A stretch of 64,000 bases of DNA from Erythrobacter sp. (GTDB lineage Bacteria; Pseudomonadota; Alphaproteobacteria; Sphingomonadales; Sphingomonadaceae), in the NCBI GenBank assembly GCA_027311945.1, contig DAICXZ010000025.1, forward strand, positions 1 through 64,000, given 5' to 3'. The notes under the pieces are model-generated. The model did not search any database and had not been told where the DNA came from. It saw only the letters and a list, made by a program, of their open reading frames with translations. The position numbers and the translations under genes were made by a program. How positions within the stretch are numbered: position 1 is the stretch's first letter; the number at the start of each line of letters is the position of its first letter. Below are positions 640 to 59,085 of the stretch, in pieces.

Positions 640-939
640 TCAGTACTTTAGCTGACGTTCGTAAAGGTCGCGATAGTGCTGGATGCGGGTTACGCGCAGG
701 CCCTGCATGCCCGAACGGTCGACGGCGCGCTGCCAGCCGGCGAATTCTTCCAGAGTGAGGCCATAGCGCTCAAGCACTTCATCAATGGTCAGCAAGCCGC
801 CATTGACTGCGGCAACCACCTCAGCCTTGCGCCTTACCACCCATCGTTTGGTGTTGGGTGAGGGCAGGTCGTCGATCGTCAGCGGCTCGCCAAGGGGGCC
901 GATGACCTGCGCCGGACGGATTTTCTGGTTCTCGATCAT
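640..939 (-). CDS. sciP: SciP-like CtrA inhibitor (DUF1153)
   Basis: The 99-residue protein carries the DUF1153 signature: VIGPLGEPLT, then LPSPNTKRWVVRRKAEVVAAV, GGLLTIDE and the helix-turn-helix part LERYGLTLEEFAGWQRAVD, ending near RIQHYR. In Caulobacter SciP binds CtrA and blocks recruitment of RNA polymerase at CtrA promoters in early G1. The full-length match with the NTKRWV...RRKAEVV core makes the family call secure. Function in this organism is inferred. The start codon overlaps the preceding gene's stop (ATGA at 936-939), so the two are translationally coupled. Confidence 0.9.
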   Translation of the reverse strand: MIENQKIRPAQVIGPLGEPLTIDDLPSPNTKRWVVRRKAEVVAAVNGGLLTIDEVLERYGLTLEEFAGWQRAVDRSGMQGLRVTRIQHYRDLYERQLKY

Positions 940-48049: not shown

Positions 48050-48666
48050 GTCTCTGGCGGCCTTCCGTGTCCGATGATGATCGCCGCTTCGGGATCGGTG
48101 GCCGATTGTTCCACGTGGAACATGGCTTGAATCGCCTGCGACTGCTCATTCAGTTCTTGCGCCGCCGACCGCCCCTTCGGCAACAGCCAAGTGGTATCCG
48201 GTGTGGAAAAGCGCGCGGATAACCGCAACAACTTCTCCAACGGAGCAAATGCGCGCGCACTGATCACACCAGCAGGGAAAGAACTGATCGTCTCAAGCCT
48301 CGCGCCCACCACGCGACACTTCGACAAACCGAACTGCCTGCACACAGTTTCCAGCCACTCGACCCGCCGCTTGCGGGATTCCACCAGGACAACCTCAAGA
48401 TCAGGCCGGGCCAAAGCGACGACAAGACCGGGAAAGCCCGCCCCGGTGCCCATATCGAGCCAAGGCGATGTTTCACGTGGAACATGGTCGAGCAGCTGGA
48501 GACTGTCCGCGATATGGCGTGTCCAGGCATCGGTAAGGCTTGCGGTCGAAACGAGGTTCTGGCGTTCGTTCTCACCTTCCAGCATGGTCAGGAACCTCGC
48601 GAACCGCTCCATCGCTTCGGAATCGCAGCGCTGGGCGCAAAACGCCCGCCCCTCTTCGATGCTCAT
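48046..48666 (-). CDS. rsmG: 16S rRNA (guanine-527-N7) methyltransferase RsmG
   Basis: The 206-residue SAM methyltransferase has the GidB pattern: [55 protein letters not shown] and [25 protein letters not shown] follows. The gene contains two parS palindromes; the C-terminal one encodes FHVEQ. It sits in the classic gid-par cluster and overlaps both neighbours by 4 bp. Confidence 0.96.
48107..48122. promoter_or_regulatory. parS site 1, inside rsmG
   Basis: TGTTCCACGTGGAACA is a perfect 16-bp palindrome, two symmetric changes from the Caulobacter/B. subtilis-type consensus TGTTTCACGTGAAACA. It lies in the 3' part of rsmG, 830 bp upstream of the parB start, and encodes FHVEQ on the minus strand. 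Confidence 0.88.
48469..48484. promoter_or_regulatory. parS site 2, inside rsmG
   Basis: TGTTTCACGTGGAACA matches the parS consensus at 15 of 16 positions. It encodes part of HVPRETS in rsmG and is 347 bp from site 1 (end to start), so ParB clamps could load at two points within one gene. Confidence 0.9.
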
Positions 48667-50580: not shown

Positions 50581-50596
50581 TGTTCCACGTGAAACA
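50581..50596. promoter_or_regulatory. parS site 3, between mnmE and mnmG
   Basis: TGTTCCACGTGAAACA matches the 16-bp parS consensus with one half-site variation and is identical to a B. subtilis parS sequence. It is intergenic, 6 bp after the mnmE stop (50603), and is the site closest to the predicted oriC (about 4.6 kb). Confidence 0.93.
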
Positions 50597-54183: not shown

Positions 54184-55200
54184 CTATCGACGAAGCACCG
54201 ACAAGGCCTGCTCGACATGCGCGATGGGCGTTTCCTTGTCGATCCCGTGGCCGAGGTTGAACACGTGCGGACGGCCCGAAAAAGCCGCACAGATGCTCTC
54301 CACAGCGCGATCGAGCGCTTCCCCGCCCGCCAGCAGCAACATCGGGTCGAGATTGCCCTGCACGGGCATTCCAGCTGGCAATTCGCGGTTGATCCAGGCC
54401 GGGTCGACCGTTTCATCGACGCCCACGGCATCGACGCCGGTTTCACGGGCATAGGCGGGCAGCTTGCCGCCGGCGCCCTTCGGAAAGCCAATCACCGGCA
54501 CACCGGGCCGCGCCTCATGCAGTCGCGCCGCAAGCCGGGCATTGGGCGCGATCACCCATTGTTCGAACTGCGCGGGGCTGAGGCTTCCGGCCCAGCTGTC
54601 GAACAGTTGCACCGCCTCGGCCCCGGCATCGATCTGGCCGAGGAGGTAGGTGAAGCTCGCCTCCTCGATCGCGCCGATCAGCGAACCGAAGCCTTGCGGA
54701 TCGCGATAGGCGAGCTGGCGGGCGGCGTGGTGATCCTTCGAGCCCTGCCCTGCCACCATGTAGGTCGCCACGGTCCAGGGAGAGCCCGCAAAGCCCAGCA
54801 TGGTCACGTCAGGCTCCAGCATGCCCCGGCACAGGCGCACGGTCTGGTAGATGGTGTCAAACCGCTCTGGCGCGGCTTCCAGACCCTGCCAGGCCGCATC
54901 GACCAGCGGCGGCGCCAGTCGCGGCCCCTCGCCCGCCTCGAACCATAGATCCTGCCCCAGCGCATAGGGAACGATCAGGATGTCAGAAAACAGGATCGCC
55001 CCATCGAAGGCAAACCGGCGCAGCGGCTGCAGCGTGATCTCGGCCGCCGCCTCGCTGTCATAGACCAGCTCAAGAAAGCCGCCCTTTTCGGCCCGCAAAG
55101 CGCGGTATTCCGGGAGATAGCGCCCTGCTTGCCGCATGAACCACACTGGAGGCCGATCCTGGCGCTGACCGTTCAAGGTATCGAGCAAAGGTCCGGGCAT
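54184..55200 (-). CDS. hemE: uroporphyrinogen decarboxylase
   Basis: HemE decarboxylates uroporphyrinogen III to coproporphyrinogen III. The 338-residue TIM barrel has RPPVWFMRQAGRYLPEYR at the N-terminus and ILFSDILIVPYALG with the catalytic aspartate. GFAGSPWTVATYMVAG and NLGHGIDKETP are the other signatures. The start at 55200 is the left edge of the predicted oriC, the typical alphaproteobacterial arrangement. Confidence 0.97.
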   Translation of the reverse strand: MPGPLLDTLNGQRQDRPPVWFMRQAGRYLPEYRALRAEKGGFLELVYDSEAAAEITLQPLRRFAFDGAILFSDILIVPYALGQDLWFEAGEGPRLAPPLVDAAWQGLEAAPERFDTIYQTVRLCRGMLEPDVTMLGFAGSPWTVATYMVAGQGSKDHHAARQLAYRDPQGFGSLIGAIEEASFTYLLGQIDAGAEAVQLFDSWAGSLSPAQFEQWVIAPNARLAARLHEARPGVPVIGFPKGAGGKLPAYARETGVDAVGVDETVDPAWINRELPAGMPVQGNLDPMLLLAGGEALDRAVESICAAFSGRPHVFNLGHGIDKETPIAHVEQALSVLRR

Positions 55201-55497
55201 CGCGAGAGTCCAATCAATATAATAATATTTATAAATAGGATTATGGTGTTTGTAGGCCCTGTGGAAAGCGGGGAAAGCGCAGTTGTCGCGGATTTGTCCC
55301 GCCGCTTCAGGCCTGCCGGGCTGATCGACTCATGCCCTTGCGCTGTCAATCATTGCTTGTCCCCGAAATCCCCAGCCTGTCGACAAGGCGTTGCATCGGG
55401 GGATCACTGGCGGGAGGAAATGGCCGTTAGCGGGGATGAGATTCCATCCCAAGCTTGTCCGCAGCTGCCTCCCGTGGTTTATGCCGGACTTGTCCAC
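55201..55497. other. predicted chromosomal replication origin oriC
   Basis: The 297-bp spacer between divergent hemE and ppsR matches the location of oriC in Caulobacter and other alphaproteobacteria. An AT-rich unwinding-like stretch lies at 55212-55244 in an otherwise GC-rich window. DnaA-box-like motifs are TTGTCCACA at 55490-55498 (8 of 9 to TTATCCACA), TTGTCCGCA at 55455, TGTGGAAAG at 55260 and two weaker TTGTCC copies at 55294 and 55357. No full CtrA double site was seen. The boundary with ppsR is shared by the last box. Confidence 0.82.
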
Positions 55498-56343
55498 ATG
55501 ACCCGTTTGCACCTTCATCTGCTGTCGGATTCAACCGGCGAAACGCTCGAAATGCTGGCGAAAGCTTCGCTGGCGCAGTTCGACGATACCGATGTCGTGC
55601 GCCACTTCTGGCCGATGGTGCGCTCGCTTCAGCACCTCGAACGCATTGTCGACGACTTGAAGGCCAATCCGGGGCTTGTGCTTTATACGCTCGTGAACTC
55701 GGAAATCCGTTCGAGCCTCGAAATGCGCTGCCGCCAGCTTGGCCTGCCGCATGTGGCGGTGCTCGATGCAGTCACGGCGGCGCTGGAAGAACGGCTCGGC
55801 CAGCAGGCGCGCGGACGGCCGGGCAAACAGCACCAGATGGACGAGGCCTATTTCCGCCGGGTGGACGCGATTCAATACACCATCGCACAGGACGACGGGG
55901 TCGGGTTCGATAACTGGGAAGAGGCCGATATCGTCCTTGCCGGGGTATCGCGCACCTCGAAGACGCCGACCTCGATCTATCTTGCCAACCGTGGGTTCAA
56001 GGTCGCCAACATCCCCTTGGTGGTGGAAAGCCCGCCTCCCCCTGCGCTGTTCAAGCTGCGCCGGCCCATGGTGGTCGGCCTCACCACCGCGCCCAAGCGG
56101 CTGATCGAAATCCGCCGCAACCGCCTCTTGTCGCTGAACGAGAGCACCACCACCGCCTATGTCGATGAAGAGCGGGTGGAAAAGGAAGTCGCCTTTGCGC
56201 GCCGCATGTTCGCCGATAACGGCTGGCCGGTGATCGACGTCACCCGCCGCTCGATCGAGGAAACCGCCGCCGCGATCATCAAATTGCACAGCGAGCGCGC
56301 AAATCGTGCCCGCCAACCCCAGGTCGGACCCAAACCGATATGA
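55498..56343 (+). CDS. ppsR: PEP synthase/PPDK regulatory protein (DUF299)
   Basis: The family is a bifunctional serine/threonine kinase and pyrophosphorylase that switches PEP synthase or pyruvate phosphate dikinase. The 281-residue protein has LHLLSDSTGETLEMLAKA near the N-terminus, the P-loop-like GVSRTSKTPTSIYLANRG (about 165-182) and VGLTTAPKRLIEIRRNRL. It is the RP001-type gene that flanks oriC in alphaproteobacteria. ATG 55498 overlaps the last DnaA-box-like motif; a longer in-frame start at 55421 is less likely. Confidence 0.92.
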   Translation: MTRLHLHLLSDSTGETLEMLAKASLAQFDDTDVVRHFWPMVRSLQHLERIVDDLKANPGLVLYTLVNSEIRSSLEMRCRQLGLPHVAVLDAVTAALEERLGQQARGRPGKQHQMDEAYFRRVDAIQYTIAQDDGVGFDNWEEADIVLAGVSRTSKTPTSIYLANRGFKVANIPLVVESPPPPALFKLRRPMVVGLTTAPKRLIEIRRNRLLSLNESTTTAYVDEERVEKEVAFARRMFADNGWPVIDVTRRSIEETAAAIIKLHSERANRARQPQVGPKPI

Positions 56344-58398: not shown

Positions 58399-59085
58399 AT
58401 GCGCGAGATCGTGTTTGATACCGAAACCACCGGCCTTGACCCGCAAACCGGGGATCGACTGGTCGAAATCGGCTGCATCGAGATCGTCAACCGCATCCCC
58501 ACGGGCGCCACATTCCACGCCTATTTCAATCCCCAGCGCGACATGCCGATGGAGGCGGAGCGGGTGCACGGCCTGTCAGCCACGTTCCTGGCCGACAAGC
58601 CGCTGTTTGGCGAACGCGCGAGCGAGCTGCTCGACTTTATCGGCGATGCGCCGCTGGTGGCGCACAATGCGCAGTTCGACTTCGGCTTCCTCAATTTCGA
58701 GCTGACAGCCATCGACCTCGCCCCGGTCGGGCATGATCGGATGATCGATACGCTGGCCATCGCCCGCAAACGCCATCCCGGCGCGAAGCACACGCTCGAT
58801 GCGCTCTGCTCGCGCTACGGGGTCGATCGCAGCCACCGCGTATTGCACGGCGCGCTGCTTGATGCCGAGCTGCTGGCGCAGGTCTATGTCGAGCTGATGG
58901 GTGGCCGGCAAATCGGGCTTGGCCTCGCGGTCGATCAGGGCACAGAGGTCGAGCGCAGCGCCAGCATCTTTGTCCCGAAACTGCGCGAACATCGGCCAGC
59001 CCGCCCCCATTTTGCGACCGATGACGAAATTACGCGTCATAAGGAGTTTCTGAAAACAATAAGTTCACCTCTCTGGACGCAATGA
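58399..59085 (+). CDS. dnaQ: DNA polymerase III epsilon subunit (3'-5' proofreading exonuclease)
   Basis: The 228-residue DEDDh exonuclease has the metal residues in FDTETTGLD (D7, E9), HNAQFDFGFL and HRVLHGALLDAELLAQVY. The C-terminal linker and tail bind the polymerase alpha subunit. The ATG at 58399 is chosen over an upstream in-frame ATG at 58363. It is the last gene of the oriC-proximal + strand group; secB, often next in other alphaproteobacteria, is replaced by hpf here. Confidence 0.95.
   Translation: MREIVFDTETTGLDPQTGDRLVEIGCIEIVNRIPTGATFHAYFNPQRDMPMEAERVHGLSATFLADKPLFGERASELLDFIGDAPLVAHNAQFDFGFLNFELTAIDLAPVGHDRMIDTLAIARKRHPGAKHTLDALCSRYGVDRSHRVLHGALLDAELLAQVYVELMGGRQIGLGLAVDQGTEVERSASIFVPKLREHRPARPHFATDDEITRHKEFLKTISSPLWTQ

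Follow-up and report, generated by a model that had tools for sequence, protein, structure and literature searches.

The spacer between hemE and ppsR in the window, the 64,000-nucleotide stretch of DNA analysed here, is very probably the chromosomal origin of replication (oriC). This assignment, already made in a first-pass annotation of the sequence, is based on the agreement of gene order, duplex instability, GC skew, parS-like sites and conservation among relatives. Against it count a best skew split that lies about 9.5 kb away, one stretch of contrary skew in a related genome, the small number of strong DnaA boxes and the poor conservation of DnaA-trios. The window represents the first 64 kb of a contig of 123,765 bases (C33) from a genome of 3.04 Mb in 33 contigs, and of the named relatives among the loci compared, Aurantiacibacter xanthus is the closest, with a PpsR that is 99% identical. 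The sequence establishes the position of the predicted origin and the anatomy of its boxes and AT tract (Table 1).

Table 1. Features of the predicted origin and associated sites, in window positions. Mismatches of boxes are counted against TTATCCACA, and fractions refer to the 96 spacers of the family.
Feature	Position	Strand	Remarks
SciP gene	670-927	-	PF06627, 6.2e-41
parS-like site, TGTTCCACGTGGAACA	48107-48122		2 mismatches to the parS consensus
parS-like site	48469-48484		1 mismatch to the parS consensus
parS-like site	50581-50596		1 mismatch to the parS consensus
hemE (uroporphyrinogen decarboxylase), left flank	54184-55200	-	PF01208, 1.4e-110
hemE-ppsR spacer, predicted oriC	55201-55497		297 bp
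AT-rich duplex-unwinding tract, predicted	55208-55244		least stable 30-mer (55213) and 50-mer (55205) on the contig
Candidate DnaA-trios, five NAN triplets (TAT AAA TAG GAT TAT)	55230-55244	+	distance to the 55260 box 15 nt
Putative DUE-proximal DnaA box, CTTTCCACA	55260-55268	-	family mostly NNATCCACA; at most 2 mismatches in 91/96
Weak box-like site 1, TTGTCCCGC	55294-55302	+	commonest family form TTCTCCCGC; TTGTCC in 15/96
GANTC (CcrM) site GACTC	55327-55331		most conserved of the spacer; GANTC at this column in 94/96
Weak box-like site 2, TTGTCCCCG	55357-55365	+	commonest family form TTCTCCCCG; TTGTCC in 13/96
Putative weak reverse DnaA box, TTGTCGACA	55378-55386	-	at most 2 mismatches in 47/96
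TTGTCC site 3, first half of rigid two-part element	55455-55460	+	offset of TTGTC to CCCGTGGTTTATGCC is 16
CCCGTGGTTTATGCC, family-conserved block, second half of two-part element	55471-55485	+	exact in 40/96
Putative DnaA box, TTGTCCACA	55490-55498	+	best of the spacer's boxes; its last base is the A of the ppsR ATG
ppsR (COG1806/DUF299 kinase-pyrophosphorylase), right flank	55498-56343	+	PF03618, 4.1e-95

The comparison was built on ppsR loci. Among 113 locus entries including the window, hemE and ppsR could both be placed in 110 (window and duplicates counted), after exclusion of two entries that were DnaA matches (L001, L002) and one whose contig was too short for hemE (L055). All 110 have the spacer, and its length, determined in 94 loci, ranges from 291 to 366 bp. 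Exact duplicates account for 18 of the 110 loci, and conserved blocks are visible in an alignment of the 92 unique spacers. At the level of the order, 20 spacers were taken from 30 further ppsR matches, 15 of other families and five of the window's family, one of the latter identical to a spacer already in the set; the remaining four bring the family set to 96. Family membership of the ppsR loci was taken from record titles; only the genomes with G handles carry family labels. For the class, 60 spacers were taken, for the most part from the highest-listed of the 136 ppsR-positive genomes among 193 searched, and the 53 with hemE aligned upstream were kept (seven excluded). No ppsR match was found in 57 of these 193 genomes, so the hemE-ppsR arrangement is not universal. 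Since related sequences are not independent, the enrichment figures given below are not P values.

The flanking genes are divergent, as at the origins of other Alphaproteobacteria. The Caulobacter origin was located between hemE and the COG1806 gene by experiment and the Rickettsia origin was predicted there (PMC1914354), and origins of Sphingomonadaceae have been predicted near hemE (PMC4741004, PMC4059872). Origins linked to hemE are thus already published, and that of the window is ordinary in kind. A longer ppsR, extended upstream in frame, was considered and rejected because in some relatives the open frame exceeds the match by only a few codons (284 versus 281).

GC skew, which had been proposed as a check, switches near the spacer, from -1.82% on its left to +1.90% on its right on the contig. 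The cumulative skew, -652 at 55 kb, is lowest at 65.0 kb (-697) and has climbed to +288 by 120 kb. The best split falls at 65 kb, roughly 9.5 kb to the right of the spacer, and was matched by none of 2000 permutations of 1-kb bins. In a one-contig genome of the same genus (G002), sampled in 20 stretches of 20 kb, all 11 to one side of ppsR have negative skew, and of the nine on the other side eight are positive and one is negative; two of the 20 lie within 0.02% of zero. Three parS-like sites lie 5-7 kb from the spacer and are likely to form the centromere, and a scan of the contig with up to three mismatches to the parS consensus returned no further site. They are found near genes that by eye resemble mnmG and mnmE.

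The sharp AT-rich tract of the earlier annotation was borne out, as it has the lowest duplex stability of the entire 124-kb contig at 30 and at 50 bp. At 100 bp it ranks second by 0.1 kcal, behind a stretch at 59044. The tract also has the highest AT content in the window at lengths of 30, 40 and 60 nt. The window fits the published search rule for the basal unwinding system of DnaA box and DnaA-trios (PMC8287927), which asks for a box with at most two mismatches and at least three NAN triplets no more than 16 nt away from it, and was applied in the presumed published orientation; the window has five triplets at 15 nt. The rule is satisfied by 19 of the 96 family spacers (4.2 expected from shuffles), by 10 of the 15 from other families of the order (3.5 expected) and by 16 of the 53 class spacers (7.4 expected). 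Runs of at least three T[AGT]G triplets occur in 29 of 53 class spacers on the plus strand and in none on the minus strand, whereas the family has 3/96 and 1/96, respectively, which is the level of shuffles. The triplet element therefore looks real in the class and worn down in the window's family, where conservation is weak under three definitions of a run as well as under the published rule. Given this poor conservation, the match in the window is weak evidence.

The four TTGTCC motifs previously noted on one strand, the best of them touching the start of ppsR, are all present (plus strand, at 55294, 55357, 55455 and 55490). Elsewhere in the window any 300-bp stretch carries at most two, and four same-strand copies within 203 bp are reached by three of 1025 other hexamers with 20-40 copies each on the 124-kb contig. 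Their interpretation as TTGTCC-type DnaA boxes survives only in part: the motifs exist, but TTGTCC is not the conserved unit. Of the 96 family spacers, 15 carry it at the alignment column of motif 1, 13 at that of motif 2, 50 at that of motif 3 and 18 at that of motif 4. Motifs 1 and 2 vary across the family between TTCTCC, TTATCC and TTGTCC and exceed two mismatches to TTATCCACA, a threshold that motifs 3 and 4 pass. The putative boxes on the reverse strand at 55260 and 55378 also lie within two mismatches and had been overlooked. The eight commonest family forms of the 55490 box, which cover 84 of 96 spacers, all share the TCCACA end. This box, the one at 55260 and the two-part element described below are better conserved than TTGTCC. 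The window's spacer contains one box within one mismatch and four within two; in the family the clustering is pronounced, with 429 boxes of at most two mismatches in 96 spacers compared to 73 in shuffles.

The dnaA gene resides on another contig (C28), and its product has a DNA-binding domain close to that of Escherichia coli (1j1v, 2e-27; 98.8 bits). A new recognition code for DnaA, which had been considered, was dropped in view of this similarity and is not needed. The loop that we take to contact the box differs from the E. coli protein by one change, from RDHTT to RDHST. A second Bac_DnaA match (7.8e-8, in a frame of 261 amino acids) lies on the contig of the window at 114548-114841, about 59 kb from the origin, and is perhaps the DnaA-regulating homologue HdaA/Hda.

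A further conserved element combines TTGTC with the block CCCGTGGTTTATGCC. The start-to-start offset of the two is 16 bases in 91 of the 92 spacers that have both (of 96). The block itself occurs within two mismatches in 87/96 family spacers, and 103 of its matches in the loci scanned fall inside spacers compared to one outside. TTGTCC and TTTATG are thereby set 17 bp apart, a distance like that in promoters, and a promoter is slightly favoured as the function of this element; alternatively, CGTGGTTTA could be a weak reverse DnaA box. A near-palindrome, GGGGATGAGATTCCATCCC, occupies 55432-55450 and has the family consensus GGGGATGGAATTCCATCCC.

The promoter-like spacing could also be taken to mean that the spacer is nothing but a two-way promoter region, in which the TTGTCC motifs serve ppsR and hemE as -35 elements, and that the origin lies elsewhere. 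A scan with the promoter consensus did find one match on the hemE strand (55267-55240), but this lone match is close to chance (shuffle mean 0.4, sd 0.6) and the scan toward ppsR found none in the spacer. Moreover, such a reading leaves the skew, the parS-like sites, the instability and the above-shuffle enrichment of boxes unexplained, and a promoter may also lie within an origin. It is highly improbable, and the spacer is treated as the predicted origin in what follows.

Full CtrA sites (TTAA-N7-TTAA), which characterize the origin of Caulobacter, were found neither in the spacer nor in the rest of the window, and the spacer has none even when one mismatch is allowed. They are likewise absent from all 96 family spacers and from the 15 spacers of other families of the order, and appear in four of 53 class spacers (0.8 expected from shuffles). 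Sites with at most one mismatch number 5 in the family, 3 in the order and 17 in the class, compared to 5.7, 13.3 and 15.7 in shuffles. The absence of full CtrA sites noted earlier, from which it was concluded that control of this origin may differ, is thus correct and the contrast with Caulobacter holds, but the absence is the rule in the window's group and not a peculiarity of the strain. A review sees no CtrA sites in origins beyond Caulobacter and possibly Rickettsia prowazekii (PMC4468827), and between 0 and 7 were predicted in origins of Wolbachia, Ehrlichia, Anaplasma and Rickettsia (PMC1914354). The whole genome of the window has two TTAA-N7-TTAA sites, compared to eight for the reversed control. 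In a count over 61 genomes, the total of TTAA-N7-TTAAC exceeds the reversed control in none of the 37 from the family, so genome-wide counts do not show use of CtrA.

GANTC, the site of the methyltransferase CcrM, is enriched in the spacers of the family. The 96 family spacers hold 490 copies compared to 133 in dinucleotide shuffles; for seven further palindromes built from the same letters the counts are 22-211. The density of 16.05 per kb compares with 1.59 in hemE and 2.06 in ppsR, and is higher in the spacer in 92 of 92 loci. Compared with the five windows of its own length that have the highest AT content in the rest of the locus, at equal mean GC, the spacer holds 5.18 copies versus 1.05 (71 loci), an about fivefold excess, and exceeds all five controls in 52 of the 71. 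Apart from the nearly invariant site at 55327, the other listed clusters are occupied in 17-60 of 96 spacers, with a total of 1 to 11 per spacer (mean 5.1), which hints at selection on number. The excess is small outside the family, with 27 copies compared to 20 in shuffles for the 15 order spacers and 178 compared to 109 for the 53 of the class. One order spacer of another family (locus L130 of genome G040) contributes 13 of the 27, and the remaining 14 have 0-3 each. The window's own count is modest: besides 55327, sites start at 55206 and 55440, and a count of three is reached by 2.1% of contig windows. CcrM is encoded in the window's genome (C8:6261-7403; 2e-157 to CcrMI, 6pbd). A rise of GANTC around the origin, resolved to 1% of the chromosome, has been described in four orders, including Sphingomonadales (PMC9836097). 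No earlier report of a GANTC cluster inside the hemE-ppsR spacer of Sphingomonadaceae was found among the titles and openings of abstracts listed.

It is conceivable that origin timing in the family works by CcrM methylation of the clustered GANTC sites, analogous to Dam/SeqA, and not by CtrA. The enrichment over shuffles, flanks and GC-matched windows and the presence of CcrM fit such a scheme, but it is rather unlikely in view of the three sites in the window, the weaker enrichment outside the family and a possible role of GANTC in transcription. In Caulobacter, moreover, loss of CcrM leaves control of initiation undisturbed in spite of GANTC in the origin (PMC3973325). A similarly doubtful explanation starts from the ctrA gene itself: the strain may have lost it, and with it CtrA control of anything, the origin included. 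A search of 61 genomes with a fragment of Caulobacter CtrA gave a match at 1.3e-85 or better in 60 of 60 relatives, while the best match in the window's genome reached 2.7e-40 (37% identity), and none of its nine Trans_reg_C proteins looks CtrA-like by eye. In the near relative G017, ctrA has an rpoN-like gene before it and mscS-like and trmB-like genes after it (named by eye), and for the 4.1-kb stretch with ctrA the assembly of the window's genome yields no more than short, weak matches. The gene is thus absent from the assembly, but its place coincides with contig breaks. Similarity to the G017 region extends until about 640 bp before ctrA, where contig C31 begins with 138 bases that by eye resemble the end of an insertion sequence, and resumes at a malic-enzyme gene on C13, behind a 7.9-kb island of mobile appearance (C13:1-7882; by eye). 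An unassembled contig between the two would explain the missing gene equally well, and the neighbour trmB also lacks a full-length match, with two partial ones elsewhere (1.9e-7 and 3.7e-6). Mutation of ctrA impaired neither growth nor viability in Sphingomonas melonis (PMC8116508). The gene for SciP reported earlier was confirmed. The combined scenario of a core origin of Sphingomonadaceae timed by a selected cluster of CcrM sites instead of CtrA, in a strain that lost ctrA and kept SciP and CcrM, is very unlikely.

By analogy with known origins, DnaA would bind the reverse box beside the AT tract together with further, mostly weaker, boxes on both strands; the resulting oligomer would open the tract, where the helicase would then be loaded. 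CtrA does not set the timing from full sites within the origin. In the preferred model, timing would depend on the level and activity of DnaA, to which methylation of the GANTC cluster by CcrM may add a second layer. In E. coli, adenine-methylation sites are concentrated at oriC under Dam/SeqA control; origins of the window's family share such a concentration, with GANTC and CcrM in place of GATC and Dam. The Cori of Caulobacter crescentus resembles the window in its hemE and COG1806 flanks, AT tract (40 bp in Cori), weak DnaA boxes (the G- and W-boxes) and GANTC sites, but is longer (404 versus 297 bp) and has five CtrA sites where the window has no full one (PMC1914354, PMC4468827, PMC3973325). 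Origins of Sphingopyxis and Novosphingobium were predicted with Ori-Finder and DoriC in the same place near hemE with DnaA boxes, and with a DUE in Sphingopyxis; in the parts of these accounts consulted, neither the GANTC cluster nor the TTGTC-16-CCCGTGGTTTATGCC element is mentioned (PMC4741004, PMC4059872).

The analysis provides a base-level map of a predicted origin of Sphingomonadaceae, supported by 96 related spacers, in which the absence of CtrA sites is not special to the strain. GANTC methylation and the fixed two-part element are conserved features that are worth testing. If CcrM sets the timing of initiation, control of the origin by methylation would have arisen in Alphaproteobacteria separately from Dam/SeqA.
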